Part shown: positions 4,762 through 21,576 of the stretch, in pieces
Position numbering within the stretch: position 1 is the first letter of the stretch
How the letters are laid out: every line of letters starts with the position of its first letter
NCBI GenBank assembly: GCA_903885375.1
Contig: CAISIK010000207.1
Location: 62,001-126,000 of the forward strand
DNA length: 64,000 nucleotides
Reading direction: 5' to 3'
Origin: an uncultured Pseudomonadota bacterium
GTDB taxonomy: Bacteria > Myxococcota_A > UBA796 > SXON01
The notes under the pieces: generated by a model
The model's database searches: none
What the model was told of the DNA's origin: nothing
Seen by the model: the letters and a program-made list of their open reading frames with translations, nothing else
Translations under genes and position numbers: made by a program

Positions 4762-4763
4762 GG

Positions 4764-4834: not shown

Positions 4835-4908
4835 GCATGCCACGGAAGGAGGGGCGTTTTTTGGGTGGCGTGGCGCTTGCAACCGCCGGGCTCGTTCCTG
4901 GAGTGAAC

Positions 4909-5334: not shown

Positions 5335-5364
5335 GCGGCGCGGCGCGGGGATAAGCCACCCGCG

Positions 5365-6267: not shown

Positions 6268-6299
6268 GCCCGCTTCGCGCCGCCTGGCCCGTCCCCACG

Positions 6300-7502
6300 C
6301 TACTCCGCGTCGGCGAACTCCCAGAGCCGATACCGTCCTTCGAGCGGCCATTTCCCATTGGTGACCAGGAACGCGCTCTTGGCGCTCTCCTTCCAGCTGG
6401 GGAGCACCGTCACCGTGTCGCCTTCGCCCTCGTTCGCGTCGTCCGGCAGGTTCAGGCGATGGAAGGTGTCGCCGCTGCCATCCCCGAGGAAGAGCGAATC
6501 CGGGCGGTCGTGGTCGCGGTTGACCCCCTCGACCAGGAAGATGTCCATGTCGCCATCGCCGTTCGCATCGCCCATCGCGACGTCGCGACCGTGCACCAGC
6601 GCGGCGGCATGGTCCGTCTCGGGAAACCGACCCGCCCGGTTGAGCCGCACCGACAGCTCCTGCGCGGTGACGCCAAGCAGGTCGAGCCAGCCATCGGCGT
6701 TCACGTCGGCCAGCTCCGCGTCACGCAGGTGAAGGTCGGCCAGGCCGAGGTCGGCCGCCACGTCGGTGTACACGCCGCGGGGGGACTGGCGGTAGAGATA
6801 AATCCGCTCGCTGGCACACAACAGCAGGTCCTCCAGCCCGTCCTGATCCACGTCGCCGCGGGCGCTGCAGGTCGCGCCGATCTCGGCGCCCAGGCCGCTG
6901 CCGCTGTCCTCGGCGAGGCTGGCATCGCCGCCGGATACACCAAGGTAGTGCCGGTTCGGGCTTGGGAAGTCGACGCCTATCTCGTTGCCCACGAACAGGT
7001 CGGGGGATGCGTCGCCGTTGGAATCGAGAAACAGCACCTCCCGGCCGCGCCCGGCGCCATCCTCTGCGCCGGAGCCCACGACTTGGTTGTCGAAGCCGCT
7101 GCCGTCGGCCCGCTGCACCCAAAGCTCATCGAGTCCCGCCACCTCCGAGGTGCCCTGATGGGCGCCGATCACGGCGTAGAAGTCGAGGAGGCCATCGCCG
7201 TTCACGTCGGCGGCGTCGCAGCCGTGCCGGTCGGCGATCGGCAGGGTGAACCAGTGGGAGTACGCACCGTTGCCTTCGTTGCGGAGGATCGGCCACTCGG
7301 CGCGGTTGTGCGCGGGCACGATCAGATCGGCGTCGCCGTCGTTGTCGAAGTCGGCCACGCACGGTTCGCCCTGGGTCCCGACGCGCACGTCGAGGTCGGG
7401 GCTCGCGGCCGCCGCCACCTCCGACGGGATCAGGGAGGCCGTGCGCTCCGCCCCCGCCTCCTCGCAGGCGCCCAACCCGAGCAGCAGCAGGCCCGCGATC
7501 AC
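6300..7502 (-). CDS. FG-GAP/VCBS repeat lipoprotein
   Basis: The protein is 400 aa from the GTG at 7502; the signal MIAGLLLLGLGAC ends in a lipobox. The body contains at least six FG-GAP/VCBS-like calcium loops: DFDNDGDADL, DVNGDGLLDF, DSNGDASPDLF, DVDQDGLEDL, DVNADGWLDLL and DANGDGDMDIF. These predict a seven-bladed, integrin-alpha-like propeller on the cell surface. The start overlaps the stop of the upstream arylsulfotransferase-like gene by 4 nt (GTGA), so translation is probably coupled and the two lipoproteins are likely made together. The exact ligand is unknown. Confidence 0.82.
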   Translation of the reverse strand: MIAGLLLLGLGACEEAGAERTASLIPSEVAAAASPDLDVRVGTQGEPCVADFDNDGDADLIVPAHNRAEWPILRNEGNGAYSHWFTLPIADRHGCDAADVNGDGLLDFYAVIGAHQGTSEVAGLDELWVQRADGSGFDNQVVGSGAEDGAGRGREVLFLDSNGDASPDLFVGNEIGVDFPSPNRHYLGVSGGDASLAEDSGSGLGAEIGATCSARGDVDQDGLEDLLLCASERIYLYRQSPRGVYTDVAADLGLADLHLRDAELADVNADGWLDLLGVTAQELSVRLNRAGRFPETDHAAALVHGRDVAMGDANGDGDMDIFLVEGVNRDHDRPDSLFLGDGSGDTFHRLNLPDDANEGEGDTVTVLPSWKESAKSAFLVTNGKWPLEGRYRLWEFADAE

Positions 7503-8830
7503 CGCAGGGCCGGGATGCGTTCGGTGTAGCCGAAGCCGGTGCCGAGGGGGGAGCTCATCTGCCAACGCGCCGAGTCGTCGGCGTTGAGCTGGAGGACCAC
7601 GCCGGAGGTCGAATACGTGATGCGGGTGCCGCCTTCGTGGTCGCGCTCCACGTCGCCCAACGCATAGTTCCAGATGACGGGGTCGGCATGGTGGGCCCAC
7701 ACCTCGGTGAGCGTGCTGCGGTCGGCGTCGAACGCGTATTCCACGGGGTGGGAAACCCGGTCGTCGGCGGAATTGTCGAACACGAGCAGCCCGTCCTCGA
7801 GCCACTGGAACTGGTGCTGGCCGGAGAACGCCTCCGTCGGGCCTGCGAAGGGGAGGGAGGGGTCGTCGCCCCCGATTTGCTCCACCACCTCGCCGGAGGC
7901 CCGGTCGATTTTCACCAGCATGTCGAGGTTTCTCAACCCGAGCCAGTAGCTGTCCGACGCCGCTTCGTAGTCGAGCGCGTTGGCGTGCGTCCACAGTTCG
8001 CCATCGTCGTACCGCGAGGGGGTGGTGAGGGGGTCGAAGGCGTCGAACGCGCTCCACACCGTGCGCTCGGTGCCATCGGGCGAACGCTCCACCAGGGCGT
8101 TCCCGCGGTAACGCACGCCCTCCACCGTGCGGGCATCGCTCACGATGGCGGCGACGGTGCCATCGGGGAGCTCGGCGAAGTCGTGGTTCGCGGAGCGGAT
8201 GTGGATGCGCTCCAGCTCCTGGCCATCGAAGCGGACGCGCACGATGGCCGGATCCCCCTCCGCGCCGTCCCCATACGCAGCCACCATGTACAGTACGCTG
8301 GTGCCATCCACAGACAGGCGCTCCCGCGTGACGCCCATGCCCTGGCCCTCCACGTGGTACCAGACCACGCGGGCTTGAAGGTCGAAGATCGTGGCCGCGG
8401 TGTCGGCCCCGAGCGTGGGAACGAGCAACAGGTCCGTGCCCGCTTCGGGTGTGCCCTCCAGGGTGAGGTCGGCAAGGCCGGGCGGAAGCGTGCCGGTCGT
8501 GCCGATCGCCGGCTCCGTCGTCGGCGCTTCGCCCGACTCGGTGCAGCCCACGCGGAGTGAAACATCCACGTTGGAGGGGAGGTTGAGCAGGAGGCGACGG
8601 TGGGTGCGGGTGGGCCTGGGCTCGGGGTCGGTCGTCTGGCTCGTTTCCCCGTCCACGCCGTACGTCACCTCGCCAATGCACTCGCGGTCGCTCGTCCAGG
8701 TGGCGACGAGCGCGGTAGCCATGTGGGGGCTGGGCTCAACGACGATGTCGGTGAGCAGGAGCGGCGTGCAACCGGTCGAGAATGCCGTCAGAAACAGGGC
8801 GATGGCGGAGCGTGGCGCCGATGCGTTCAT
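7499..8830 (-). CDS. Arylsulfotransferase (ASST)-like beta-propeller lipoprotein
   Basis: The protein is 443 aa. The N-terminus ends in a lipobox (TAFSTGC). The central region matches ASST-family propellers: WTHANALDY at about residue 275, then LGLRNLDMLVKID, GQHQFQWLEDGLLVFDN, and W.YALGDVER. PAPS-independent arylsulfotransferases use a His in such blades to carry the sulfate. Candidate His residues are in WTHAN and FSGQHQF. Whether catalysis is retained is uncertain, because many lipoprotein members are uncharacterised. It overlaps the FG-GAP lipoprotein gene by 4 nt. An alternative view is a purely structural WD40-like propeller. Confidence 0.72.
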   Translation of the reverse strand: MNASAPRSAIALFLTAFSTGCTPLLLTDIVVEPSPHMATALVATWTSDRECIGEVTYGVDGETSQTTDPEPRPTRTHRRLLLNLPSNVDVSLRVGCTESGEAPTTEPAIGTTGTLPPGLADLTLEGTPEAGTDLLLVPTLGADTAATIFDLQARVVWYHVEGQGMGVTRERLSVDGTSVLYMVAAYGDGAEGDPAIVRVRFDGQELERIHIRSANHDFAELPDGTVAAIVSDARTVEGVRYRGNALVERSPDGTERTVWSAFDAFDPLTTPSRYDDGELWTHANALDYEAASDSYWLGLRNLDMLVKIDRASGEVVEQIGGDDPSLPFAGPTEAFSGQHQFQWLEDGLLVFDNSADDRVSHPVEYAFDADRSTLTEVWAHHADPVIWNYALGDVERDHEGGTRITYSTSGVVLQLNADDSARWQMSSPLGTGFGYTERIPALR

Positions 8831-8939
8831 GGGTGCGTCGCAGGTTTACCCTGCTCCGAAGCCCACCGCATCGGTGGCGGTCGGCGGGCCGGGCGCGAGT
8901 CGCGTGAAGGGCGCGTGCGGGAAGCGCGTACGGAGGGGC

Positions 8940-8987
8940 ACTTCGGTTGCGGCTGCGGCGCTCGCCGGGCGAAATTGCAACCGAAGT
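8940..8987. repeat. Stem-loop, 11-bp perfect stem
   Basis: ACTTCGGTTGC (8940-8950) pairs perfectly with GCAACCGAAGT (8977-8987) around a 26-nt loop. A third TTCGGTTGC follows at about 9014-9022. The hairpin sits in the 288-bp gap upstream of the ASST-like gene. No T-run follows on either side. Confidence 0.65.
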
Positions 8988-8990
8988 CGC

Positions 8991-9008
8991 CTCTCTCCGG
9001 GAAGAGAG
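8991..9008. repeat. Short stem-loop
   Basis: CTCTCT (8991-8996) pairs with AGAGAG (9003-9008) across a 6-nt loop, immediately after the 8940-8987 stem-loop. The dense packing of hairpins suggests this gap is a structured intergenic region rather than a hidden gene. Confidence 0.45.
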
Positions 9009-9061
9009 GGAGGTTCGGTTGCGCCGAGGGCGCCGCCCCGTTCGGCGGCCGCCGCGCCGTT

Positions 9062-9116
9062 GGCACCGCCGCGACCGGTCCCGGGTCGGGCGCTCGCTGG
9101 CGCGGTTTGCGGTGCC
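9062..9116 (+). repeat. Hairpin repeat, copy 1 of 5 (CGCGACC family)
   Basis: The stem is GGCACCGC (9062-9069) with GCGGTGCC (9109-9116). The loop begins with CGCGACC, then GGTCC, then CGGGT, and carries CGCTCGCTGGC before the 3' arm. The same loop start follows the 5' stem in all five copies, while stem sequences differ. This copy lies just past the 3' end of the mono-haem lipoprotein gene. Confidence 0.65.
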
Positions 9117-9118
9117 GC

Positions 9119-9559
9119 CTACTCCAGCGCCCCGGCTTCTACCCAGGTGCGGATCATCCCGATCTCGTGGGTGCTCAGCGGGGTGACGTCGCGCTGGCCC
9201 TCGGGGGGCATCGCGTCGCCGAACTGCGGATCGTCCCCGATCTTCTCGATGAGCAGCGAAGCGGTGAGGTCGCCGGGCACCACGTAGAAACGGCCTTCGT
9301 CCTGCACGGCTTCCTCCCCCAGCAGCCGGGTGTAGGTCGCGGTGGCATCGCCCGGAACCACGAAACGACCGATGTAGTCGCTCTGGTGGCAGCCGCCGCA
9401 GCGGGCCTCGAGGAGCGGGAAAACGTCGGACCAGCCGGGCGGGTCGCCGCTGGTGTCCCAGGTGATGTCCGCCGCTTCGGCGGTGTCGGGCGCCTCGCCC
9501 GTCTCGCGGACATCGTTGGATTCGAGGGGAGCGCAGGCGAGGGAGAGAAGCAGAAACAT
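9119..9559 (-). CDS. Small c-type mono-haem lipoprotein
   Basis: The protein is 146 aa from the ATG at 9559, with TGGAGG 5 nt upstream. MFLLLSLAC is a lipoprotein signal, then an Asp/Thr/Glu-rich linker to about residue 42. CGGCH at 54-58 is a c-type haem site, and DAMPPEG at about 118 offers the distal Met ligand. This is the pattern of planctomycete- and myxobacterial-type cytochrome c-like domains attached to the membrane. It is divergent from the LysR gene with 87 bp between starts, the usual arrangement for a LysR regulator and its target. Confidence 0.75.
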   Translation of the reverse strand: MFLLLSLACAPLESNDVRETGEAPDTAEAADITWDTSGDPPGWSDVFPLLEARCGGCHQSDYIGRFVVPGDATATYTRLLGEEAVQDEGRFYVVPGDLTASLLIEKIGDDPQFGDAMPPEGQRDVTPLSTHEIGMIRTWVEAGALE

Positions 9560-9600
9560 CGGACCTCCAGATGCTGCATCGTCGCCCGGCCCGATCTCGG

Positions 9601-9636
9601 TGTAAATCAGGATATATTGAACTGTACTGTATGGAG
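9601..9636. promoter_or_regulatory. AT-rich divergent control region (probable LysR target)
   Basis: This is the only strongly AT-rich stretch of the divergent gap. It contains TATATTGAAC and the direct repeat ACTGTACTGT. A GGAG at 9633-9636 serves the LysR start at 9647. A LysR-type regulator would be expected to bind here, but no clean T-N11-A dyad can be assigned by eye. Confidence 0.4.
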
Positions 9637-9646
9637 TAGCCGAACA

Positions 9647-10540
9647 ATGCTTCCGGACTCGGAGAGCCTGCGGTGTGTCGATCTCGCCGCATCCCTCCTG
9701 AACTTCCGCGCCGCGGCAGCCCGGGCGGGGCTCTCGCCGGCGGCGTTCAGCGACCGCATCCAGCGCTTCGAGGAGCAGCTGGGCGTGCGGCTGTTCACCC
9801 GCACCACGCGCTCGGTGCAGCTCACGGAGGTGGGCGAGCGGCTGCTGCCCCAGATACGGGTCTGCCTTGAGGACCTGCGCGTGCTGGCCCGGCTCGCCGA
9901 GGCCGACCGCGGGGCCGAACCGTGGACGCTCACGTTGGGCACCCGCTGGGAGCTGGGGCTCTCCTGGGTCGTCCCCGCGCTGGGCGCCTTGCGGAGCGCC
10001 CACCCCGAGCGCACGATCCATCTCGCCTTCGGCGACAGCCCCGACCTCCTGGAGGGGGCCCGCCGCGGCGCCCCCGATGCCGTGGTCACGAGCTACCGGG
10101 TGCTCGTGCCGGACCTGGTGTCCGAGCCGCTGCACGAGGAGGCGTACACGTTCGTCGCCGCTCCCGCCTGCCTGGTCCGCGCCCCCCTCGACGGCCCGGC
10201 CGACGCCCGCCATCACGTGCTCCTCGACGCGCTCCCCGACCTCCCGCTCTTCCGCTACCTGCTCGACGCCACCGGCGGCGGTGAGCCCTGGCCCTTCGCC
10301 GGGACCGAGCTGCTGGGCGCCATCGGCGCGGTCCGCGCCCGTGCGCTCCTGGGCGCCGGCGTGGCCGTCCTTCCCGCCTACTTCGTGGCCGGCGATGTCG
10401 CCGCGGGCCACCTCGTCAGGGTGATGCCCGAGGTGAAGCTCCCCAGCGACCAGTTCCGCCTGTGGTGGCGGCGTGGTCACCCTCGCGCGGGGGGGCTGCG
10501 CGAGCTCGCGGCCGAGCTCAGGGCGATGCCGTTGCGGTGA
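9647..10540 (+). CDS. LysR-family transcriptional regulator
   Basis: The protein is 297 aa, the normal LysR length. The N-terminal winged HTH (residues about 8-60) has NFRAAAARAGLSPAAFSDRI, then RFEEQLGVRLFTRTTRSVQLTEVGE, the classical LysR helix-turn-helix and wing. Residues about 90-290 are the periplasmic-binding-protein-like effector domain. The ATG at 9647 has GGAG 10 nt upstream. Its divergent neighbour, the mono-haem lipoprotein, is the most likely target. The effector is not predictable. Confidence 0.88.
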   Translation: MLPDSESLRCVDLAASLLNFRAAAARAGLSPAAFSDRIQRFEEQLGVRLFTRTTRSVQLTEVGERLLPQIRVCLEDLRVLARLAEADRGAEPWTLTLGTRWELGLSWVVPALGALRSAHPERTIHLAFGDSPDLLEGARRGAPDAVVTSYRVLVPDLVSEPLHEEAYTFVAAPACLVRAPLDGPADARHHVLLDALPDLPLFRYLLDATGGGEPWPFAGTELLGAIGAVRARALLGAGVAVLPAYFVAGDVAAGHLVRVMPEVKLPSDQFRLWWRRGHPRAGGLRELAAELRAMPLR

Positions 10541-10558
10541 GGCGCTGCCCCGGCGCCG

Positions 10559-11865
10559 CTACCGGGCGCAGGTCCCCGACGTGCAGGTGACGGAGGTCTC
10601 TCCGTCGTAGTCGTAGAAGTTGCCTCCATAGGCCACGTCGCCGTACTCGCCGGCGGTGGCGCCGCGTCCGAAGTCGATGCCCAGGATGTCGGCGCGGCCG
10701 TCCACCCAGGTGATCTGCACGGCGTAGTTGGTGCCGCGGGTCATGCTGCCGCCCGAGAGCGTGGCGTCGGGCTGCCCGCCGGAGCCGAGAGACTCCCGGA
10801 GCGTCAGGCAACTGTCCCAGACCTCGTCGCAGGTGATGTCCGACCACTCGGTGGCCACGCCGCGCACGCCGGCGCCGGCGTACTGGCCGGCGATGGAGAC
10901 GCCTGACACGACCGAGGGGGCCCACCCGAGGTCGAGCGCCGCGGAGGCTTCGTTGTTGCTGAAGCTGCCCCCGGTGACGGTGAGCGGCCCGCCCGGCCGG
11001 ACGTACACCGTGGCGAGCGTGCCGCCAGCGACGTTGTCGGTGAAGCTCGTGCCGGTGAGGTCGAGGTTCTGGTCGTCGAAGTTGCGCGTCCAGTCGACGT
11101 CCAGCGCGCCGCCGCCGGCGTTTCCGAGGCCGGAGAAGGCGCTGCCGGTGATGGCGGCCGCCGGACCGAGGAGGGTCACGCTCATGCCGCCGGCGGCGTG
11201 GTCGCGCACCGTCACGCCGTTGAGCGCGAGCTCCCACCAGGACCCGCTCACGGCCACGGAGTTGTAGCCGGCGCGGGGCTGCAGGACGCTTTCGGTGACG
11301 TTCAGCACCGCCCCCGGGTCGACGGAGCTGAGCGCCCCACCGGTCACCGTCAGGCGCGACACATCCACCTCGGCGCCCCCGCACGGGTCGCCATCGCCGC
11401 CGCACTGCAGGTAGAGCGGCAGGTCGCCCCGGAGCTCGAGGTCGGATAGCGTGATGCCGGCGGCGGCGGTGGCGAGGACGGCCACACCGTCCTCCCCGTC
11501 CACCACGGCGGGGCGCGAGGGGTCCGCCGACGTGAGCGTGAGGCGTTGGCGGGGGCCCACTACCACGTTGAGCCGGTAGGTCTCGCCGCAGAGCGCGAGC
11601 TCACCGCTCGCCGGCGCGCTCCAGGTCGCCACGGCGCTGGCGCCGCCCCCGCCGATGTCCGCCGCCGCGACCTCCACGGCCTCCCCGCCCGCGGGCGTCC
11701 ACGTTGCCGCGCACGGCACGCCGGTGTCGGTGTCGGTGTCGGTGTCCCTGTCGGTGTCGGTGTCGGTGTCGGCGTCGGTGTCGCGTGCGCCGGTGTCGTT
11801 CCCACCGCGTCGGTGTCGTCGGGTTCGGAGCAGGCGAGGAGGAGGAGGGCGTTGAGGGCGTGCAT
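10559..11865 (-). CDS. Asp/Thr-linker lipoprotein with beta-helix-like body; apparent frameshift near 11800
   Basis: The start at 11865 gives MHALNALLLLAC, a lipoprotein signal, then SEPDDTDAVG. About 60 nt in, the frame carrying this signal changes into a Thr-Pro run, while the Asp-Thr repeat and the whole downstream protein (GVPCAATW onward) continue in a second frame with no signal of its own. Adding one base in the GGGAAC run (plus strand 11798-11806) restores a single protein of about 435 aa. The body is rich in Gly/Ser/Val with right-handed beta-helix-like rungs and ends in CTSGTCAR. This could be a sequencing error, a real inactivation, or a phase switch. Confidence 0.6.
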
Positions 11866-12043: not shown

Positions 12044-12688
12044 ATGACCCTGCTTCTTCTTCTGGCCTGCACCACCGCCACGGACAACAACTTCACGGGA
12101 AAAGCCGCCTATCGGGACGCCCCGACGGACTCTTCCGGGTCGGCGAAGGAGGCCCAGCCGGTAGCGCGGGAGGACGGCGGCGATCAGTCCATCCAGTTCA
12201 CCAGCTCGTTCGAGGGGAACGGCACCTTCGGCGATCTCACCGACATCTGCCTGCCGGCCGACGGCTCGTTCACTGGCACCAGCAGCTCGGAGGGCGCGAT
12301 CGACTCGGACGGCAACTTCAGCGGGGAGGTGAGCGCCGCGGGCTCGGGCTCCGTGCTGAAGTCCACGCTGGGCTGCGTCACGTCGGACCTCGACATCGAC
12401 GCGCTGACGTCCATCACCATCGTCGCCTTCATCGAGGCCGACAGCGAGAACTGCACCTACTACTGCGAGTCGAACGCGCGGGCCGAATGCGAGTCGGACA
12501 GCGACCGCGCGGCCTGCGAAGCCGACCTGGCTGCGAGCTGCGAGGAGGAGTGCACGACCGAGCACACCTCGATCCTCGCCGAGATCACCATCGATGGCGG
12601 CGCGAGCCTGGAGGCGATCAACAACGGCATGGACGGCGAGGTCTTCGGCGCCTTCACGAGCGAGCTCACGTTCGACACGCTGGACTGA
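12044..12688 (+). CDS. Lipoprotein of unknown function with Cys-rich segment
   Basis: The protein is 214 aa. MTLLLLLAC is a lipoprotein signal and GGAG lies 6 nt before the ATG. The mature protein is acidic, with beta-strand-like repeats (GSFTGTSSSEGAIDSDGNFSG). Between residues about 137 and 180 it holds eight Cys, spaced as paired CxxxC-like elements (CTYYC, CESDSDRAAC, CEEEC). These are probably disulphides or a metal site. No family is recognised. It is divergent from the frameshifted lipoprotein gene and followed by two inverted hairpin repeats. Confidence 0.7.
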   Translation: MTLLLLLACTTATDNNFTGKAAYRDAPTDSSGSAKEAQPVAREDGGDQSIQFTSSFEGNGTFGDLTDICLPADGSFTGTSSSEGAIDSDGNFSGEVSAAGSGSVLKSTLGCVTSDLDIDALTSITIVAFIEADSENCTYYCESNARAECESDSDRAACEADLAASCEEECTTEHTSILAEITIDGGASLEAINNGMDGEVFGAFTSELTFDTLD

Positions 12689-12707
12689 GCCCCCCGCGCC
12701 GGCGCCG

Positions 12708-12755
12708 AGCCGCGCAGCGGTAGGCGGGTCCCCCGAGGTGGGTCGCGGCGCGGCT
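12708..12755 (-). repeat. Hairpin repeat, copy 2 of 5 (CGCGACC family)
   Basis: The stem is AGCCGCGC (12708-12715) with GCGCGGCT (12748-12755). Read on the minus strand the loop starts CGCGACC, then CACCT, then CGGGGG, matching the other copies. It is inverted relative to copy 3, which begins 14 bp later; the pair resembles a REP-type inverted doublet. Confidence 0.7.
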
Positions 12756-12769
12756 TCCCGTCCGGTTGG

Positions 12770-12819
12770 GCAAACCGCCGCGACCGGTCGCGGGGGGCGC
12801 GCTCGCTGGCGCGGTTTGC
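12770..12819 (+). repeat. Hairpin repeat, copy 3 of 5 (CGCGACC family)
   Basis: The stem is GCAAACCGC (12770-12778) with GCGGTTTGC (12811-12819), nine perfect pairs. The loop begins CGCGACC, GGTCG, CGGGGG and contains CGCTCGCTGGC like copy 1. It is in opposite orientation to copy 2. Confidence 0.7.
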
Positions 12820-12894
12820 GGCGCCGCCGAGCGGGTTTCGGCAAGACGTCGCGGGATCCGGCGACCGTTTTCGTAGGGGGGTCGAGGACTCCCC

Positions 12895-14322
12895 ATGCTC
12901 ACCCGTTCGCTCCCGCTGCTCCTGCTCCTGTCGGTCGCCTGCACCGACACCACCCCCGTGCCGGAGGGCGACCCCGTGCTCGGCGCGGCCGACCCGGGCT
13001 GGTGGGGCGTCGTGGGCCCGCGGATCGCCAACGACAGCCGGCGGATCCACGACGAGGCGGGGGTCTACACCGCCCACGTGGGCGAGCTGACGGCCCGCTT
13101 CGAGCCCAACGCCGTGCGGCTCCGCGCTGGGGGCACGGCCGGACCGGTGGTGGCGCTGCGCGGGTGGGATGTGGGCGGCGGCTGGCAGGAAGCGGGGGCG
13201 CAAGCGCCGCGGCTCGGTGGCTGCGCCCCCGGCCCGGAGCTCGACCCGGCCGGGCGCTGCCTGGCACGGCTGGAGTACCGTCGCGGCGGGCTCACCGAGT
13301 GGTGGGCGAGCACGGCGGCCGGCTACGAGCAGGGCTTCGAGGTGGCGAGCGCGGCGGGCGGCGTGGTGGAGCTGGAGCTCGCCACGGGGAGCGAGGTCAG
13401 GGGGGAGGGCGGCCGGCTGCGGCTGCACCCGCCGGAGGGCCTCGTGATCCGCGTGGACGTGGCGGGTGCGGCCTTCCCGGTCACCATCGACCCGCTCTAC
13501 GTCCCGGCGGAGACCGCGTTCGAAGAAGCCGACGGGGCGGCGCTGCACGGCTACGCGCTCAGCACCGGCGATGTGAACGGCGATGGCTACGTGGATGCCG
13601 TCGTGGGCGCGCCGAGCTCCGACGTCACCGCCACGGACGGGGGCGCACTCTACAGCTACCTCGGCTCCGCGAGCGGTCTCGGTGCCTCCGGCACCCGGTA
13701 CGCGCCCGCCTACGGGGCGAGCGCCAACCTCGGCGCTGCGGTGAGCATCGACGGCGATGTCACCGGCGACGGCTACGACGATCTGGTGTGGGGCGCGCCC
13801 GGGTACAGCAGTGATGAGGGCGCAGTTGGGCTCGTTCTCGGCAGCTCGAGCGGCCTCTCGGGAAGAGCGGTCTCGGCCTGCACCTTTGCCAGCACGGGGG
13901 CCTGGGGCACGGCCGTGAAGATCGTCCCCGACTGGGACGGCGACGGCGGCGACGAGGTGGTCACGGGTGCACCCGACTACGACAGCGCCACGGGGCTCGT
14001 ATACGGGTTCCGGGGCACGTCGACCGGCTGGACGACCCAGGGAATCGACTCCGGGAGCGCGGCCGGCGACGAGTTCGGTGCCAGCTTCGTGGTGGGCGAC
14101 TTCGAGGGCGATGGCGAGGAGGACCTCGTGATCGGCGCCCCGGGGGGTGGGTACGCGAGTGTGCTCTCGCACGTGTACTACACCGCCGCGGCCTCCAACA
14201 GCGGCGCGCGCTCACCGGGGCCGCGGACAGCCGGTTCGGGGCGAGCCTCACGGCGGCCGACCTCGACGCCGGTGGCGGCGAGCCCGGCCACGAACGTTGA
14301 CGAGGCCACCCCCGCGCCGTAG
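12895..14322 (+). CDS. FG-GAP repeat lipoprotein with disrupted 3' end
   Basis: The protein is 475 aa as read. MLTRSLPLLLLLSVAC is a lipoprotein signal. Residues about 40-200 are a beta-rich domain. From about 220 there are FG-GAP blades: DVNGDGYVDAVVGAP, DVTGDGYDDLVWGAP, DWDGDGGDEVVTGAP and FEGDGEEDLVIGAP. The blade pattern stops at about residue 430. The last 40 residues in this frame are low-complexity Arg/Pro/Ser. An adjacent frame instead reads ADSRFGASLTAADLD, the expected next blade, before a stop at about 14300. A single-base loss in the GCGCGC run near 14205 would explain this, and even then the protein ends early. It is probably a surface adhesin-like propeller that is decaying or mis-sequenced at its end. 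Confidence 0.7.
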   Translation: MLTRSLPLLLLLSVACTDTTPVPEGDPVLGAADPGWWGVVGPRIANDSRRIHDEAGVYTAHVGELTARFEPNAVRLRAGGTAGPVVALRGWDVGGGWQEAGAQAPRLGGCAPGPELDPAGRCLARLEYRRGGLTEWWASTAAGYEQGFEVASAAGGVVELELATGSEVRGEGGRLRLHPPEGLVIRVDVAGAAFPVTIDPLYVPAETAFEEADGAALHGYALSTGDVNGDGYVDAVVGAPSSDVTATDGGALYSYLGSASGLGASGTRYAPAYGASANLGAAVSIDGDVTGDGYDDLVWGAPGYSSDEGAVGLVLGSSSGLSGRAVSACTFASTGAWGTAVKIVPDWDGDGGDEVVTGAPDYDSATGLVYGFRGTSTGWTTQGIDSGSAAGDEFGASFVVGDFEGDGEEDLVIGAPGGGYASVLSHVYYTAAASNSGARSPGPRTAGSGRASRRPTSTPVAASPATNVDEATPAP

Positions 14323-14331
14323 AGCGGGATC

Positions 14332-14697
14332 ATGGACCCCCTCGAAGCCCTCGGCCCGCTGGAAGCCCGCGTCATGGGCGCGCTGTGGTCCACCGGCACG
14401 GGCACGGCGCGGGAGGTGTGCACCACCCTCGCCGAGGAGTGGGCGTACACGACGATCATGACGACGCTCGACCGGCTCCACAAAAAGGACATGCTCGCGC
14501 GCGAGAAGGAGGGGCTGGCGTGGCGGTACCGGCCCGTGCTCGCCCGCGATGCGTTCGAGCGCGCGCGCGTCGACGCGCTCGCCGCGCGCCTCCTCGGAGC
14601 GCGGCGCGACCTCGGTCTGGCCGCGCTCGTCGACGCGGCCGATGCGGCCACGCTCGATCGCCTCGCGGAGCTCATCGAGGCGCGTCGGCGCCCATGA
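14332..14697 (+). CDS. BlaI/MecI/CopY-family repressor
   Basis: The protein is 121 aa with the Penicillinase_R winged helix: LGPLEARVMGALW, then TAREVCTTL, then WAYTTIMTTLDRLHKKDML and the wing EGLAWRYRPV. This is the complete family signature, with a C-terminal helical dimerisation tail. BlaI and CopY proteins repress divergent or downstream genes by binding TACA/TACTAC-type palindromes and are inactivated by an M56 partner or by metal. The M56 gene overlaps its stop by 4 nt (ATGA). A BlaI-type palindrome lies at 15679-15697, just ahead of the efflux genes. Confidence 0.9.
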   Translation: MDPLEALGPLEARVMGALWSTGTGTAREVCTTLAEEWAYTTIMTTLDRLHKKDMLAREKEGLAWRYRPVLARDAFERARVDALAARLLGARRDLGLAALVDAADAATLDRLAELIEARRRP

Positions 14698-15671
14698 TCG
14701 CCACGCTCGGCGCCTTCCTCGAGACGGTCGCGGTGCTCGCCGCCGCCTCGGCGCTCGCGTCGTTCGCGGTCCTGCCCGCGCTCGCGGGGGTGCGTCGGCT
14801 GCGGCTCGCCCCGGCCGTTCGTGCCGACCTCGCCCTCGCCGCCGCCGCGCTGCCTGCGGGCGCCGTCGTCGTCGTGGCGGTCGCCGTGGCGTTCCCCAGC
14901 GCGCTCGATCTCCTCGGCTTCGTGGCCGACCACTGCGACGATCACGGCGGCCACGGGCACCTCTGCCTCGCCCACCCCGGCGTGGCGGCGCCGTCGTTGG
15001 TGGCCATCGGCGCGTTGGTTGTCGCCTCCACCCTGCTACGCGCGGGCCGCTGGGTGGCGACCCGCGCGGCCGCCGCGCGCGACCTCGCGGCCTTGCTGCG
15101 GCTCGGCGTGCCGGCCGCCGAGGGGCCGGACGTCGTCTGCGTCGATGGCCGCACCGTGCTCTGCCACGCAGCGGGCGCGTGGGCGCCCCGGGTGCTCGTG
15201 TCCACCCGCCTGATCGCCGGCCTCCCCGCCGAGCTCCTCTCCGCCGCCCTCGAACACGAGCGCGCCCATGTGAGGCGTCGCGATGTGCTCGCCCGTGATG
15301 TCCTCACCGTCCTCGGGCTCCTCGCCTGGCCCGGCGTGCTGTCCGCGGCGGTGGCAGCCTGGGAACAAGCCGCCGAGGAGGCCGCCGATGCGGCGGCGGC
15401 GGCGCGTTTCGGGGGCCCCTTGACCGCGAGGACCCTGATCGCGGTGGCCCGGATGTCCCTTTCACCGGCGCCTGCGGCCAGGCCCATCGTCGGCGCCCGC
15501 CTCGAACAACGCGTCCGTGCCCTGCTCGATCGTCCGCCGCGCCACCGCCCGGCGCTCGCGCTGGTGGCGGTCCCGGCGCTGTTCGTCGGCCTCGTGCCCT
15601 TGGCGGCGCTGAACGCCGAGCCGCTGCACCACGCCGCCGAGACGGCGCTGCACTACATCCTCGAAGCTTGA
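14694..15671 (+). CDS. M56 (BlaR1/MecR1-type) membrane metallopeptidase with His/Cys-rich loop, probable metal sensor
   Basis: The protein is 325 aa. There are hydrophobic segments at about 8-33, 45-70 and 98-116, then a cytosolic zinc-protease region with HERAH (residues 188-192, the HExxH motif) and a Glu/Asp-rich helix at about 226-232 that would supply the third ligand, then more hydrophobic helices to about 310. BlaR1's penicillin-binding sensor domain is absent. Between the second and third hydrophobic segments is HCDDHGGHGHLCLAH (residues 80-94), seven His/Cys in 15 residues, predicted to be a metal-binding loop. Together with the adjacent BlaI-type gene and the downstream cation-efflux genes this suggests a metal-triggered protease that inactivates the repressor. 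Topology and signal are inferred. Confidence 0.82.
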   Translation: MIATLGAFLETVAVLAAASALASFAVLPALAGVRRLRLAPAVRADLALAAAALPAGAVVVVAVAVAFPSALDLLGFVADHCDDHGGHGHLCLAHPGVAAPSLVAIGALVVASTLLRAGRWVATRAAAARDLAALLRLGVPAAEGPDVVCVDGRTVLCHAAGAWAPRVLVSTRLIAGLPAELLSAALEHERAHVRRRDVLARDVLTVLGLLAWPGVLSAAVAAWEQAAEEAADAAAAARFGGPLTARTLIAVARMSLSPAPAARPIVGARLEQRVRALLDRPPRHRPALALVAVPALFVGLVPLAALNAEPLHHAAETALHYILEA

Positions 15672-15697
15672 CGCGGCTCTACTACGCATAGTAGTAG
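15668..15697 (+). promoter_or_regulatory. BlaI-type operator overlapping a probable leaderless promoter
   Basis: CTACTACGCATAGTAGTAG at 15679-15697 is a perfect 7-bp inverted repeat with a 5-nt spacer. Its core resembles known BlaI boxes of the TACTAC...GTAGTA type. A TTGACG (-35-like, 15668-15673) overlaps the M56 stop codon. A -10 at about 15691-15696, 17 bp away, would lie inside the right arm and start transcription at or near the ATG at 15703. Bound repressor would therefore block the promoter directly. No ribosome-binding site precedes the ATG. Confidence 0.72.
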
Positions 15698-15702
15698 GCG
15701 CG

Positions 15703-17280
15703 ATGCTGCGCGTACTCCCGCTCCTCGCCCTCGCGCTCGCCTGCTCGGGACTCGGTCTCCCTGACGCTCATGACCACGAAGGCGAAGGCGCCCACGGTCA
15801 CGGCGAGGCCGCCGAGGATCCGCGCCCCGACAACGCCGTGACCCTCTACCAGGGCGGCGTTGAGCTCTTCATGGAGTACCCGACGCTCGTGGTGGGGCAG
15901 GAGTCGCCGCTCATCGCGCACTTCACCGACACCCGCGATCCGAAGGGCTTCGTGTGGGTGACGGAGGGGAGCGTCGTGGCCACGCTTCGCTTCGAGGATG
16001 GCACCCAGGAGAGCTTCGCGGCAGACAAGCTGCTGCGAAACGGCATCTTCAAGCCAATCGTGAAGCCCGCGCGGGCCGGACGGGCGTCGTTTTCGCTCGC
16101 CCTCACGGGACACCCCGCCGCCGGCACGGTCGAGGTCGGGGAGGTCACGGTGTACCCCACGATCGAGGCGGCGGTCGCGGCCGCGCCGGCCGAGGAGCCC
16201 GGCGAGCCGACCGTCGGCTACCTGAAGGAGTCGCAGTGGAAGACGACGTACGCCACGGCGGCCGCGGAGGCGGGCACGGTGCGGGCGGGCGTGCGCGCTA
16301 CCGGCGAGCTCCGCGCGGTGGGGGGCGCCGAGGCGGAGCTGTCCGCCCCGGTGGCCGGTCGCCTGCTGCTGCGGGAGCCGCTCTACGTCGGACGCGCGGT
16401 CGAGAAGGGCCAGCTGCTGGCGGAGATCGTGCCCATCGTGGATGCCGACCGCTCGGGCCTCGACGCGACCCTCGCGGAGGCCGCGGCCGAGCTCGGCCTC
16501 GCGGAGCGGGCGCTGGAGCGCGCCCGAGCGCTTCACCCCGCGGTGGTCTCCGAGCGCGAGCTTCGGGAAGCCGAAGCGGCGCTCACCTCCGCCCGAGCGC
16601 GCGCGGAGGCGGCCGAGGCGCGGGTGGCCGTGGTCCGGGGCGCCCAGACGGGGGGCGGGGCCGGCGCGTCGGGGGCCGCGTTCGCGCTGCGTGCACCGTT
16701 CGCCGGGGTGATCGTGAGCACCGACGCCGTCACGGGCCGCAGCGTCGCCGCCGGGGATGCCGTGGCCCGCATCGTCGATCCGCGGGAGGTGTGGCTGTAC
16801 GCGCGGGTGTCCGAGACGGATGCCGCACGGGCAGGCAGCCCGGTAGGCGCCACGTTCTCCCTCTCCGGCTCCGACGAGGTGATCGACATCGCCGCCCGCA
16901 ACGGCCGGCTCGTCTCCGTGGGCGCCGCGCTCGACCCCGCCACCCGCACGCTGCCCGTGATCTTCGCCCTCGACAACCCCGACGGCGCGCTGAAGCCGGG
17001 GATGTTCGTGCGATCGACGATCTTCACCGGGGAGAGCAGCGAGGGCGTCGTCATCCCCGCCACGGCGGTGGTGGACGACGGCGGGCGTCCGACCGTTTTC
17101 GTCATGGAGGGAGGCGAGGCGTTCTACAAGCGCGTGGTCCGGCTGGGCGCGCGCGATGGCGACCGGGTGCAGGTGCTTTCCGGTGTCGCCGCGGGCGAGA
17201 GGGTCGTGAGCAGCGGCGCCTACGAGGTCCACCTTTCCACCGTGTCCGGGGCCATCCCCGAGCACGGTCACGCCCACTGA
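15703..17280 (+). CDS. RND efflux periplasmic adaptor (CusB/CzcB-like) with His-rich ends
   Basis: The protein is 525 aa. A lipoprotein signal (MLRVLPLLALALAC) is followed by a His-rich segment (DAHDHEGEGAHGHG, about residues 21-34). Residues about 45-150 form an extra beta domain (VTLYQGGVELFMEYPTLVVG) found in some heavy-metal adaptors. The membrane-fusion core follows: lipoyl halves around LSAPVAGRLLLREPLYVGRAVEKGQLL and RAPFAGVIVSTDAVTGRSVAAGD, with a helical hairpin between, then beta-barrel and membrane-proximal domains. The C-terminus is PEHGHAH. It links the RND pump to the TolC-like channel and may load metal. The extra His clusters argue for a divalent cation or Cu/Zn rather than drugs. 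Confidence 0.85.
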   Translation: MLRVLPLLALALACSGLGLPDAHDHEGEGAHGHGEAAEDPRPDNAVTLYQGGVELFMEYPTLVVGQESPLIAHFTDTRDPKGFVWVTEGSVVATLRFEDGTQESFAADKLLRNGIFKPIVKPARAGRASFSLALTGHPAAGTVEVGEVTVYPTIEAAVAAAPAEEPGEPTVGYLKESQWKTTYATAAAEAGTVRAGVRATGELRAVGGAEAELSAPVAGRLLLREPLYVGRAVEKGQLLAEIVPIVDADRSGLDATLAEAAAELGLAERALERARALHPAVVSERELREAEAALTSARARAEAAEARVAVVRGAQTGGGAGASGAAFALRAPFAGVIVSTDAVTGRSVAAGDAVARIVDPREVWLYARVSETDAARAGSPVGATFSLSGSDEVIDIAARNGRLVSVGAALDPATRTLPVIFALDNPDGALKPGMFVRSTIFTGESSEGVVIPATAVVDDGGRPTVFVMEGGEAFYKRVVRLGARDGDRVQVLSGVAAGERVVSSGAYEVHLSTVSGAIPEHGHAH

Positions 17281-17290
17281 AGGGGTCGCC

Positions 17291-20200
17291 GTGAACCGCC
17301 TCATCCGCTGGTCCATCGACCACCGCTTCCTGGTGCTGGTCGTCTCCGCGCTCCTGCTCGTCTGGGGTCTCGTCGTGGCGCGTCGTATGCCCGTGGACGT
17401 TTTCCCGGACATCACGGCGCCCACCGTCACCGTCGTCACCGAGGCGCACGGGCTCGCGCCGGAGGAGGTCGAGACGCTCGTCACCTTCCCCATCGAGACC
17501 GGGGTGAACGGCGCGACCGGCGTCCGCCGCGTCCGATCGGCCAGCGGCGTCGGCATCTCGATCGTGTGGGTGGAGTTCGACTGGGGCACCGACATCCGCG
17601 ACGCGCGCCAGGTCGTGAACGAGAAGCTCCAGCTCGTCGGGCCGCAGCTCCCCCAGGACATGGCGCCGCCGACGATGGCCCCCGTCTCGTCGGTCATGGG
17701 GGAGATCCTGTTCCTATCCGTGGCGTGGAAGGAGCCGGCGGCCGACGAGGCCGGGCAGCTCTCGCAGGCGATGATCGCGCGGAGTACCGCCGATCAGGTG
17801 CTGCGGAAGCGCATCCTGGCGGTGGCCGGCGTCTCCCAGGTCGTACCCATCGGCGGCGCGGTGAAGCAGGCGCAAGTCCGGGTACGCCCCGAGGCGATGG
17901 CGGCCTACGGCATCAGCTTCGAGGCCGTTGCCCACGCGCTCCGGGGCGGGAGCGCGAACGGCTCGGGCGGGTTCGTCTCCGAGAACGGCCAGGAGCTCCT
18001 CCTCCGGGTGGTCGGGCGCGCCGAGGACGTGGAGGCCCTGGGCGCCACGGTGGTGGAGGTGCGGGACGGCACCCCGATCCACGTCCGCGACCTCGCCGCA
18101 GTGGAGATGGGGCCGAAGGTGAAGCGGGGCGAAGGATCGTCGAACGCGCGGCCGGCGGTCGTGCTCGCCGTCATGAAGCAGCCCGAGGCCAACACCCTCG
18201 ACCTCACGGCGCGCATCGACGGGATGCTCGACGAGATCGAGCCGACCCTGCCGGCCGGGCTCGTCGTGGACCGGCAGGTCTTCCGGCAGGCGGACTTCAT
18301 CTCGTCCGCCGTGGACAACGTTTCCGAGGCGCTGCGGGACGGCGCGATCCTCGTGGCGGTCATCCTCCTGCTCTTCCTCGGCAACTTCCGCGCCGCGGCC
18401 ATCTCGCTCGCGGCGATCCCGCTCTCGCTCGTCGTGGCCGTGCTCGTCCTCGACCAGCTCGGCATCACGCTCAACACGATGACGCTCGGCGGGCTCACCA
18501 TCGCCATCGGGTCGGTCGTGGACGACGCGATCATCGACGTGGAGAACGTCTACCGGCGCCTGCGAGAGAACGCGGGGTTGCCCGAGGGCGACCGGCGAGG
18601 GGGGCTGGATGTCGTCTACGCCGCCTCCGTGGAGGTCCGCACCTCCATCGTTTTCGCCACGCTCATCATCATCCTCGTGTTCCTCCCGCTCTTCTTCCTG
18701 TCCGGCGTCGAGGGGCGGATGCTCGCCCCGCTCGGGCTCGCCTACATCGTGTCGATCGCGAGCTCGCTCCTGGTGGCGATGACGCTCACCCCGGCGCTGG
18801 CCGCCATCGCCCTGCCGCGCTCGGCAGCCACCGCACACGAGAGCCGGGTGATGGGCTGGCTCAAGCGCGCGTATGCCCCAAGCCTCCGCGGCGCCCTCGC
18901 CCACCCGTGGCTCGTGCTCGGCGCGTCCGGGCTGGCCCTCCTCGCCGCCTTGGCGGTTCTGCCCTTCCTCGGGCGCTCCTTCCTCCCGGAGTTCAACGAG
19001 GGCGCGCTCACGCTGAACGTCGTGACGCTGCCCGGCTCGTCCCTGGAGCAGTCCGACGCGCTCGGGCGCCGCGTGGAGGAGGTCCTGCTCGGCTTTCCCG
19101 AGGTGGCGGGCACGGCGCGGCGCACCGGCCGCGCGGAGCTGGACGAGCACGCGCAGGACGTCAACGCTTCCGAGCTGGACGTGCGCCTCGATGTGTCACG
19201 CGGCGAACGAGGCCGCGACCTGTTCCTCGCGGACCTGCGCAAGGCGCTCGCACAGGTGCCGGGCGCGGTCATCACCGTTGGCCAGCCGCTCTCGCACCGC
19301 ATCGATCACATGCTCTCGGGGAGCCGCTCCGCCATCGCCATCAAGGTGTTCGGGGACGACCTGGGCACGCTCCGCCAGATCGCCGAGCAGATCGCCGAGT
19401 CGGTGAAGACGGTACCCGGCGCCGTGGACGTGTCCGTGGAGCAGCAGGTCGACATCCCGGCCCTCGAGGTGCGCGCCGACCGGGATCAGCTCGCGCGCTA
19501 CGGCCTGGGCGCCGGGGAGCTCGCGGAGGCGGTGGAGCGCGCCTGGACCGGCGAGAACGTGGGGATGCTGGTGGAGGGGCAACGAACCCTCGACATCGTG
19601 CTGATGCTGGACGAGCGCGCGCGGGATGGCATCGAGGCCGTGGCGGCCACGCCGATCGACACCCCGGTGGGCGTCACGGTGCCGCTCGGCGCGCTGGCGA
19701 CGATCACGCGCGCCGCGAGCCCCAACACGATCTCCCGCGAGGGCGTCGTGCGGAAGATGGTGGTCCAGGCGAACGTCGCGGAGCGCGACCTCGCCGCGGT
19801 GGTCGAGGACATCCGGGCGAAGGTCGCCGCCGACGTGCCGCTTCCCGAGGGCTACTTCGTGGTGTACGGCGGGCAGTTCGAGAGCGCGGCCGAGGCCACC
19901 CGCACCATCGGGCTCCTGTCCATCGCCGTGGTCTTCGGCATCGGTGTGCTCCTGGTCGTCGCGCTCGGCTCGGTTCGAAACGCCGTCATGACGTTGATCA
20001 ACCTGCCGCTCGCGCTCATCGGGGGGGTGTTCGCGGTGGCCCTCACCTCCGGCGTCGTCTCGATCCCCGTGCTCGTCGGCTTCATCACGCTCTTCGGCAT
20101 CGCCACCCGCAACGGGATCATGATGGTGACCCACTTCGAGCACCTGCTCGCCGAGGGCCGGAGCGTGCAGGAGGCCGTGATCCACGGCTCCATGGAGCGG

Positions 20201-20434
20201 CTCGCCCCCATCCTCATGACGGCGCTCTGCGCCGGGCTCGCGCTCGTCCCGCTGGTCCTCGCGGCCGACGAGCCCGGGAACGAGATCCAGGGACCGATGG
20301 GCGTCGTGCTCCTCGGCGGACTCCTCACGAGCACGGCGCTGAACATGGTGGTGGTGCCCGTCCTCTTCCAGCGCTTCGGGCGGCGAGCACCCCGCGAGCT
20401 GCCCCCTGTGGCCCTGACGGGAGGTGAGGCGTGA
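17291..20434 (+). CDS. Heavy-metal efflux RND transporter (CusA/CzcA family)
   Basis: The protein is 1047 aa, full length for an RND pump. It starts at a GTG with AAGGGG 6 nt upstream. MNRLIRWSIDHRFLVLVV begins TM1, and PVDVFPDITAPTVTVVTEAHG is the HAE/HME N-terminal signature. TM4 carries AIGSVVDDAIIDVENVYRRL. In CzcA the matching stretch has Asp402, Asp408 and Glu415; here the first is Ala, the second and the Glu are kept, and an extra Asp follows. This places it in a less-studied HME subgroup. Repeated porter domains and a second TM set (FGIATRNGIMMVTH) complete the fold. It would export cations from periplasm or cytoplasm by proton antiport. It is followed by the TolC-like gene with a GTGA overlap. 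Confidence 0.92.
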   Translation: MNRLIRWSIDHRFLVLVVSALLLVWGLVVARRMPVDVFPDITAPTVTVVTEAHGLAPEEVETLVTFPIETGVNGATGVRRVRSASGVGISIVWVEFDWGTDIRDARQVVNEKLQLVGPQLPQDMAPPTMAPVSSVMGEILFLSVAWKEPAADEAGQLSQAMIARSTADQVLRKRILAVAGVSQVVPIGGAVKQAQVRVRPEAMAAYGISFEAVAHALRGGSANGSGGFVSENGQELLLRVVGRAEDVEALGATVVEVRDGTPIHVRDLAAVEMGPKVKRGEGSSNARPAVVLAVMKQPEANTLDLTARIDGMLDEIEPTLPAGLVVDRQVFRQADFISSAVDNVSEALRDGAILVAVILLLFLGNFRAAAISLAAIPLSLVVAVLVLDQLGITLNTMTLGGLTIAIGSVVDDAIIDVENVYRRLRENAGLPEGDRRGGLDVVYAASVEVRTSIVFATLIIILVFLPLFFLSGVEGRMLAPLGLAYIVSIASSLLVAMTLTPALAAIALPRSAATAHESRVMGWLKRAYAPSLRGALAHPWLVLGASGLALLAALAVLPFLGRSFLPEFNEGALTLNVVTLPGSSLEQSDALGRRVEEVLLGFPEVAGTARRTGRAELDEHAQDVNASELDVRLDVSRGERGRDLFLADLRKALAQVPGAVITVGQPLSHRIDHMLSGSRSAIAIKVFGDDLGTLRQIAEQIAESVKTVPGAVDVSVEQQVDIPALEVRADRDQLARYGLGAGELAEAVERAWTGENVGMLVEGQRTLDIVLMLDERARDGIEAVAATPIDTPVGVTVPLGALATITRAASPNTISREGVVRKMVVQANVAERDLAAVVEDIRAKVAADVPLPEGYFVVYGGQFESAAEATRTIGLLSIAVVFGIGVLLVVALGSVRNAVMTLINLPLALIGGVFAVALTSGVVSIPVLVGFITLFGIATRNGIMMVTHFEHLLAEGRSVQEAVIHGSMERLAPILMTALCAGLALVPLVLAADEPGNEIQGPMGVVLLGGLLTSTALNMVVVPVLFQRFGRRAPRELPPVALTGGEA

Positions 20435-21576
20435 TCGTGCTCCTGTGCGGGCTCGCGCTCGCGATGACCCCCGCCGAGGCCGTGCGCGCCGCTACGGCGA
20501 ACGATCCGGCGCTCGCCGGTGCCGAGTCGGCGCTGCTGTCCGCCACGGGGGCCCGTCGCTCGGCGAGCTGGTTGCGGTCGAACCCCGGGATCGAACTTTC
20601 GGCCGACGCCGGCGGAGCGCGGCTGGGCGCCTCGGTCACCCAGGACATCTCCCTCTCGGGCGCCGGGGTCGCAGATGCACGGAGCGGCCGGTACGCGGTG
20701 GAGGCCGCGGAGGCCGGGCTGACCCGGGCGCGGATCACCACCGCGGCCGAGGCCCGGCGCGCGTGGGCCCGGCTCGCGGCTGCCGATGGCGCCCTTCGCG
20801 CCACGGAGGGGGAACGGGCCAGCGCCACTGCGGTCCGCGCCGCGGCCGAGGCCCGCCGCGCGGCGGGCGAGGCCTCGGATCTGGAGCTCGAGCTCGCGCG
20901 GCTGGAGGAGGCGGGGGCGGTGGCCGCCTGGCTCGCGGCGGTCGACGAGCGGGTGGAGGCGCAGTCGGCCCTCGCCGCGCTCACCGGCGAGGCCGGGGCC
21001 AGCGCGGAGGGCGACCCCCTCTCGGCGGTCCCGACCGCCGGCGCGGCCAGCCCGCGTTCGGATGTGGCGGCCGCGGAGGCGCGGGTGGAGTCCGCCCGCG
21101 CCGCGCTCGCCCGGGAGCGGGCCGAGGCGGTCCCCTCGGTGGGCGTGGGCGCGTTCCTGGAGCTGGAGGGCGAGCGCACGCTCGCGGGGCCTGCGCTGCG
21201 CGTCGAGCTGCCCATTTGGCAGCAGAACGCGGCGGGCCGCGGCGCGGCGAAGGGCGATCTCCGGGTGGCCGAAGCCGAAGCGGCGTCGGCGCGGGCGCGC
21301 GCCGAGGTGGAACAACGGTCCGCCGCGGAGCGGCTCGTCCGGCTCGGCGGGTCCGGCGCCTCCCTCGCCCCCGGGGTGGACGCCTCCGCGGAGGCCGCCT
21401 TGATGGCCATCGGCGCCGGCGTGGAGCGCGGGCAGATCAACCCGGCCCACGCCGCGCTGCTGCGCGCCCGCGTCTTCGCGGGCCAGCGGGGATGGTACGC
21501 GGCGCGGCTGGCGGAAGCGGAGGGGCGTATCGACGCGGCCCTCGCGATCGAGGACGCCGCGCTCCTCGCGCCCTGA
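20431..21576 (+). CDS. TolC/CzcC-like outer-membrane efflux protein
   Basis: The protein is 381 aa from the GTG at 20431, overlapping the pump stop by 4 nt. A short signal (MIVLLCGLALA) is followed by two Ala/Glu/Arg-rich coiled-coil repeats (EAVRAATANDPALAGAES at about 12-30, SDVAAAEARVESARAALARE at about 210-230) with beta-strand regions between (GIELSADAGGARLGAS, VGVGAFLELEGE). This is the two-fold TolC arrangement, shorter than most (about 420-450 aa). It is the likely channel of the tripartite pump with the two preceding proteins. Confidence 0.82.
   Translation: MIVLLCGLALAMTPAEAVRAATANDPALAGAESALLSATGARRSASWLRSNPGIELSADAGGARLGASVTQDISLSGAGVADARSGRYAVEAAEAGLTRARITTAAEARRAWARLAAADGALRATEGERASATAVRAAAEARRAAGEASDLELELARLEEAGAVAAWLAAVDERVEAQSALAALTGEAGASAEGDPLSAVPTAGAASPRSDVAAAEARVESARAALARERAEAVPSVGVGAFLELEGERTLAGPALRVELPIWQQNAAGRGAAKGDLRVAEAEAASARARAEVEQRSAAERLVRLGGSGASLAPGVDASAEAALMAIGAGVERGQINPAHAALLRARVFAGQRGWYAARLAEAEGRIDAALAIEDAALLAP

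Follow-up and report, generated by a model that had tools for sequence, protein, structure and literature searches.

In the 64,000-nt stretch of contig CAISIK010000207.1 analysed here (hereafter the window), five adjoining genes encode a BlaI-family repressor, an M56 membrane protease and the three parts of a heavy-metal efflux (HME) pump of the resistance-nodulation-division (RND) type. We propose that they form a self-contained metal-responsive derepression switch for this pump, a reading based on sequence comparison to which we give a probability of about 0.7. All coordinates are positions within the window, and L-numbers are the locus labels of our survey. The five genes are:

14332..14697, + strand: BlaI/MecI/CopY-family winged-helix repressor, 121 amino acids (PF03965, 87 bits, cut-off 22.6)
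14694..15671, + strand: M56 membrane metalloprotease, 325 amino acids, BlaR1-like, without penicillin-sensor domain (PF05569, 34.4 bits, cut-off 31)
15703..17280, + strand: RND periplasmic adaptor of the CzcB/CusB type (TIGR01730, 158 bits; PF16576)
17291..20434, + strand: CusA/CzcA-family heavy-metal RND pump, 1047 amino acids (TIGR00914, 823 bits, cut-off 701)
20431..21576, + strand: TolC-like outer-membrane efflux factor (PF02321, 63.5 bits)

An original prediction, made from the DNA letters alone, had listed these five genes as co-directional. Coordinates, order and strand all match and the family profiles agree. The BlaI and M56 genes as well as the RND and outer-membrane factor genes overlap by 4 nt.

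The M56 protein had been described as carrying an intact HExxH motif and no penicillin-sensor domain, and this is what we found: HERAH is located at residues 188-192, M56 and M48 are the only family matches, and no penicillin-binding family was matched in a family-profile search of the protein, which ends at residue 325. D197 and the gluzincin motif E228xxxD232, also typical of the BlaR1 active site, are present too. The predicted model of the protein is similar to BlaR1, with N-terminal helices, extracellular loop 1 (EL1) and protease domain, and places a Cys/His loop at the position of the BlaR1 signalling loop EL1. A PDB sequence search with the M56 protein yielded two weak matches to HigA and nothing else. 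Three segments of the gene are of particular relevance:

14931..14975, + strand: codons for residues 80-94, the putative extracytoplasmic metal loop HCDDHGGHGHLCLAH at the EL1 position
15255..15269, + strand: codons for the catalytic HERAH (188-192); H188 and H192 conserved in 81/81 loci, E189 in 80/81
15627..15641, + strand: codons for HHAAE (312-316), the putative second half of a metal site; H312 conserved in 80/81 loci, H313 in 60/81, E316 in 80/81

All seven His and Cys residues claimed for the loop are present (H80, C81, H84, H87, H89, C91 and H94), and none of 20000 shuffles of the M56 protein contained at least 7 Cys/His per 15 residues. Absent from the earlier description were the C-terminal motif LHHAAE (H312, H313, E316), situated beyond the last hydrophobic helix, the residues D197 and E228xxxD232, and the lack of a metal-binding motif in the repressor. 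Conservation was counted in 81 higher-scoring loci, the window included, which were picked without regard to the loop from the results of a profile made of 21 loop-bearing sequences. In the loop, C91 is retained in 80 loci, C81 in 79, H89 in 75, H94 in 73 and H80 in 72; H84 (51) and H87 (47) are variable. The remaining catalytic residues E228, D232 and D197 reach 80, 81 and 75, respectively. Thus C81, C91, H312 and E316 are almost as invariant as the catalytic residues. These numbers replace an earlier ligand count in 74 sequences (window included; median pairwise identity 28%), which was partly circular for the loop residues because the sequences had been picked by a pattern with C81, C91 and mostly H89/H94. 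H312 and E316 were never part of any selection pattern. BlaR1 has both its termini on the outer side (N-out, C-out); if M56 is analogous, loop and tail would lie on the same extracytoplasmic face, and we infer that they may share one metal. One M56 relative (L047, 5544-6494) has HARAH instead of HExxH and is possibly an inactive protease or the product of a sequence error.

The repressor itself contains only C30 and H50 as Cys and His residues and lacks a C-terminal CxC metal motif. Such a motif was found in none of the 126 BlaI open frames of the survey when the last 40 residues were inspected, and the CopY model TIGR02698 gave 49.6 bits for the window BlaI, under its cut-off of 121.95. The 31-nt gap between the M56 stop codon (ending at 15671) and the adaptor start codon (15703) contains the BlaI-like palindrome which had been noticed directly upstream of the pump genes:

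15679..15694, no strand assigned: palindrome CTACTACGCATAGTAG, putative BlaI operator, 8 nt upstream of the adaptor start codon

The exact pattern CTACTANNNNTAGTAG matches once in the window and once in the 6.0-Mb assembly, both times at this site. Allowing up to 2 mismatches, 57 places per strand were found in the whole assembly compared to 336 for the reversed control pattern, and therefore only the exact site is meaningful. Within 12473-15678 of the window, allowing as many as 3 mismatches gave no further match. There is thus no match in front of blaI, and the blaI-M56 pair is probably not under the same operator here. A consensus promoter scan of 14100-15760 found none; a candidate -35 element, TTGACG at 15668-15673, was picked out by eye only. 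The sequence CTAC-N(6-9)-GTAG was found up to 260 bp after the M56 gene in 10 of 11 window-class loci (the window, nine loci from genomes of the same order, and L025, with L043 lacking it) and in 21 of the 81 higher-scoring loci. Other lineages carry different palindromes, e.g. TACGAC..GTCGTA in the CHC-class loci L049-L058 and L090. In several of these it lies upstream of blaI as well as downstream of M56, which points to autoregulation in these loci. CGATTG-CAATCG palindromes occur in a few other loci.

The switch could operate as follows. At rest, a BlaI dimer on the palindrome would block transcription of the genes for adaptor, pump and outer-membrane factor. The M56 protein would be a membrane protease of the BlaR1 type whose active site faces the cytoplasm and in which the penicillin-binding domain is replaced by an extracytoplasmic metal site composed of H80, C81, H89, C91 and H94 of EL1 and probably H312 and E316 of the tail. 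Excess periplasmic metal may bind to this site and pull helix 3, the link between EL1 and the protease domain. The activated M56 would then cleave BlaI, resulting in induction of the pump. The original prediction had proposed this pathway in outline, and it is supported in part: by gene content and order, the position and conservation of the loop, the conserved tail, the predicted fold, the uniqueness of the palindrome and the linkage to HME pumps. Metal binding, BlaI binding and cleavage, protease activation and induction are inferred.

The distribution of the loop was surveyed in other genomes. Of 58 genomes searched with P0001, the window's own included, 18 gave matches; 20 matches lay outside its own genome, and all 19 loci fetched were loop-bearing. 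A phylum profile search gave matches in 213 of 377 genomes, and loci were drawn from among the matches listed. Together, the neighbourhoods of 19 order-level, 60 higher-scoring, 40 lower-scoring and 14 more loci and of the window were analysed, and 134 M56 proteins were classified. Loops were called by regular expressions and rows corrected by eye, by which L110, L137, L142, L161, L183, L187 and the truncated L143 were counted as loop-bearing and L144 was assigned to the DDC..C type. Dropped were L020 (not among the loci fetched), L024 and L026 (duplicates of L040 and L041), L059 (no profile match) and a second, upstream pump of L037 scoring 377 bits, and from the tree described below also L025 and L171. 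An RND gene within 6 kb downstream of M56 was scored as present, none in at least 5 kb as absent; 22 of the 134 loci, in which the contig ends less than 5 kb downstream of M56 (17 loop, 5 loopless), were left out of this count.

A Cys- or His-bearing EL1 loop was found in 80 of the 89 M56 proteins with a downstream RND gene, but in only 4 of the 23 without (19 loopless); as the loci had been chosen with an alignment of loop-bearing sequences, these counts do not give the loop frequency among all M56 proteins. They supersede a first automatic count (two or more Cys within one fixed segment; 87/89 versus 5/23), which was dropped because Cys residues in transmembrane helices of the loopless group were counted. 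The loop patterns observed were HC..H.HLC..H (window type), CHC..HLC..H, DDC..C, C..DH..C and CxxHxHCD. The expectation that the loop would be confined to M56 proteins beside BlaI and HME-RND genes thus holds as an association and fails as a strict rule. Nine loci are RND-linked and loopless (L027, L031-L033, L035-L038, L171), and four are loop-bearing with no RND gene downstream (L099, L117, L126, L145). The case that had been named in advance as refuting the prediction, loopless M56 homologues beside efflux genes, does exist: M56-BlaI-RND clusters of this kind are L027, L031, L032, L033, L035, L037 and L038. L036 resembles them, its contig starting just upstream of M56 with no BlaI seen. L099, L117 and L126 have a window-type loop and the HxxxE tail with no RND gene in more than 9 kb downstream and are possible orphan sensors for a distant pump. 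A Pfam search of nine neighbours of L099, L103, L117, L126, L143 and L145 found no transporter except for an outer-membrane efflux protein gene beside L143.

It might be argued that M56 genes are simply common, as the 213 matched genomes indicate, and that 23 of the 112 with enough downstream sequence have no RND gene, so that an ordinary BlaR1-like or stress-responsive M56/BlaI pair with no metal function could be next to the pump by chance. We consider this very improbable: three phylum-level searches met the same arrangement of genes again in distant genomes, the loop sets the pump-linked M56 proteins apart, and the palindrome lies directly upstream of the pump genes.

The loop is also associated with the class of the pump. 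In the Myxococcota set, 25 of 26 pumps beside a loop-bearing M56 scored over the HME (TIGR00914) cut-off, L137 being under it with 645. The pumps beside the loopless M56 proteins of L027, L031, L032, L035, L036, L037 and L038 were all under the cut-off (395-682), i.e. 7/7 tested in the loopless M56-BlaI-RND clusters plus L036, with the partial pump of L033 left out. Several of these seven have TIGR00914 as their best model and may therefore be distant HME relatives. The loopless L171, a locus without a BlaI match, has a pump over the cut-off at 725. Two further phyla were searched, represented by 398 genomes (phylum of a Rubrivivax record, 29 matched) and 247 genomes (phylum of an Acidobacteria record, 86 matched), and 20 loci were fetched (L235-L254). 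The window-type loop was present in L235-L239 and L243-L248. In L240 and L242 an M56 protein with a His-only HWHH loop and an HHxxE tail stands beside an RND pump, which in L240 passes the HME cut-off. L241 has a Cys/His loop and lacks an adjacent RND match. Neither a loop nor a co-directional RND gene is present in L249-L254. All 8 tested pumps of loop-bearing loci in these phyla passed TIGR00914 (760-1576); the divergent pump of the loopless L253 failed at 573. Overall, the cut-off was passed by 33 of 34 pumps of loop-bearing loci compared to 1 of 9 of loopless loci (Fisher p 5e-7, a descriptive value since relatedness is ignored). L161 and L187 have an adjacent Cys pair only; excluding both, the counts are 78 of 89 for the RND linkage and 31/32 for the pumps passing.

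Several observations limit the case for a sensing loop. There are loopless M56-BlaI-RND clusters and loop-bearing M56 proteins with no pump nearby, and kinship among the loci inflates the associations between loop and pump. The seven loopless RND rows form a single clade in a tree built from 75 M56 proteins and hence count as one event, not seven. The near-invariance of the ligands would suit a structural role just as it suits a sensing one. Loop and tail could then bind a permanent structural zinc and the protease could sense another signal, e.g. pump misfolding or envelope stress; the loop-bearing M56 proteins without a downstream pump would be in line with this. We regard this explanation as unlikely. 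Several different Cys/His loop patterns exist, one of them His-only, and a purely structural site need not track the pump class in the way seen above, an argument which is in turn weakened by relatedness.

A strict code relating loop to pump, which had looked like sensor-pump matching, was rejected, and the correlation is retained merely as a trace of common descent. Among 75 M56-RND pairs, 45 had both the HLC-type loop and a His-His pump (H669/H673 in the window) and 28 had neither; two pairs were discordant (L042, L183). The His-His signature of the pump changes 4 independent times on the M56 tree: the HLC loop follows in 2 cases, does not differ in 2 and is opposed in 0 (sign test p 0.5). 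With a His count of at least 3 or at least 4 as the trait, a mean of 2.7 changes went in the same direction and 0 were opposed (p 0.25). In a DDC..C clade nested within the HLC group (L144, L146-L148) both loop and pump have changed; in L042 the pump has changed and the loop has not, and in L183 the pump is of the His-His kind and the loop a different, His-rich one. Outside Myxococcota the window-type loop is found with a Met/Glu pump (L235, L236, L238, L239, L243) and with a His-His pump (L244-L248). Genomes of the Rubrivivax phylum have this loop next to pumps of the other site type. The loop hence marks the HME linkage well and does not specify the pump type.

Some indication of the transported metal comes from the pump, whose nearest solved structures are ZneA and CusA. 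The places of the CusA methionines 573, 623 and 672 are occupied by N, A and H in the window pump, and those of ZneA D654/D658 by H669/H673. Transmembrane helix 4 reads AIGSVVDDAIIDVEN and lacks DFG-DGA-VEN, the motif of HME1 and HME2 pumps in transmembrane helix IV (PMC3637150). Together, the pump residues speak against a CusA-type copper/silver site and would be compatible with zinc, cadmium, nickel, cobalt and others. The most likely metal is a divalent cation, for instance zinc or cadmium, with copper possible too.

The adaptor, a lipoprotein by eye, is His-rich at its N terminus (H23, H25, H31, H33) and carries further His residues at its C terminus (H521, H523, H525). A lipobox could be recognised in 11 of 47 adaptors of HH-type pumps, followed by 7-17 His within 70 residues; of the adaptors of other pumps, 6 of 23 were readable in this way (1-11 His), and for the EE type none of 7. 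A metal-responsive switch might accordingly read the metal elsewhere, either in a periplasmic protein such as this adaptor or, given that M56 is itself a zinc enzyme, at the catalytic site as cytoplasmic zinc. This seems improbable to us, for it leaves the conservation of the M56 loop and tail unexplained, and by analogy with BlaR1 both would be located across the membrane, away from the catalytic residues.

With BlaR1/BlaI and MecR1/MecI of staphylococci, the proposed switch shares the protease fold (as predicted), HExxH, an aspartate at +5 after the second His, ExxxD, the EL1 position, the adjoining BlaI gene and the palindrome at the target. It differs in that the C-terminal penicillin-binding domain of BlaR1 and MecR1 is missing, a Cys/His EL1 and a short HHxxE tail being present instead, and in that the pair precedes an HME pump and not a beta-lactamase or PBP2a gene. 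CopY and TcrY belong to the same repressor family as the window BlaI. The C-terminal metal site of CopY is CxCx4CxC, and the window repressor is without a CxC metal site. CopY binds copper directly (PMC10141476). The pump resembles CusCBA, CzcCBA and ZneCBA in being tripartite with TIGR00914 over the cut-off, but its residues at the pump site differ from those of CusA and ZneA, and its putative regulators are BlaI and M56. CusCBA and CzcCBA are regulated by two-component systems of the CusRS/CzcRS type.

Cation sensing by a BlaR-type protease already has a published precedent in the copper pair PetP/PetR. According to commentary and review texts, PetP of Synechocystis is a copper-activated BlaR-like protease that degrades the BlaI/CopY-like repressor PetR, and PetR both represses and activates in the control of plastocyanin and cytochrome c6 (PMC7896320, PMC12292863, PMC10141476, PMC13421787). 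Both systems, compared here by their descriptions, combine a membrane BlaR1-type protease with an adjoining BlaI-family repressor and do without beta-lactam; a metal signal and removal of the repressor by proteolysis would be common to them as well if our scheme is right. The targets appear to differ: in the window the palindrome and the genes next to it are those of an efflux pump. No paper on a metal pump controlled by M56 and BlaI was found in the open-licence literature searched.

The survey allows a wider reading, the chances of which we judge to be evenly balanced: that BlaR1-like proteases of at least three phyla are widespread, undescribed one-protein periplasmic metal receptors which, by means of interchangeable EL1 loops (HC..H.HLC..H, CHC..HLC..H, DDC..C, C..DH..C, CxxHxHCD and the His-only HWHH) and a shared C-terminal HxxxE in place of the penicillin-sensing domain, switch on an adjoining HME pump via BlaI proteolysis. 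The familiar regulators of metal pumps that face the periplasm comprise two-component systems, anti-sigma factors and cytoplasmic repressors. If the proposed reading is true, two small proteins would do the job of CusRS/CzcRS-type systems, and regulated proteolysis of the BlaR1 type would be a further route from metal outside the cytoplasm to a promoter, frequent in the Myxococcota genomes sampled. The architecture of the beta-lactam receptor would have been retargeted by swapping EL1 and the C-terminal extension. Furthermore, the pair would offer a simple system for studying the control of the protease by EL1, which the structures of BlaR1 explain only in part, and possibly a two-gene metal biosensor.

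Further observations concern individual loci. A plasmid search with the window M56 protein gave no match. A long open reading frame (12895-14322), by eye a repeat-type secreted protein, ends 9 nt upstream of blaI; its C-terminal tail seems out of frame, and it may be truncated or frameshifted. A second M56 gene with an adjoining BlaI-like open reading frame (by eye) is present in the genome of the window (G000:C141, L059, about 7446-9324, - strand), and gave no hit with the loop-family profile at E 1e-4. In L052 (about 2981-4502) the match to the adaptor is split in two, indicating a broken gene or a frameshift error. Two tandem BlaI-M56 pairs occur in one genome at L189 (G113:C222, about 1-11505), of which the leading one has a CxxHxHCD-type loop together with an adaptor, an outer-membrane efflux protein and a DFG-DGS pump of its own, and the following one a window-type loop.

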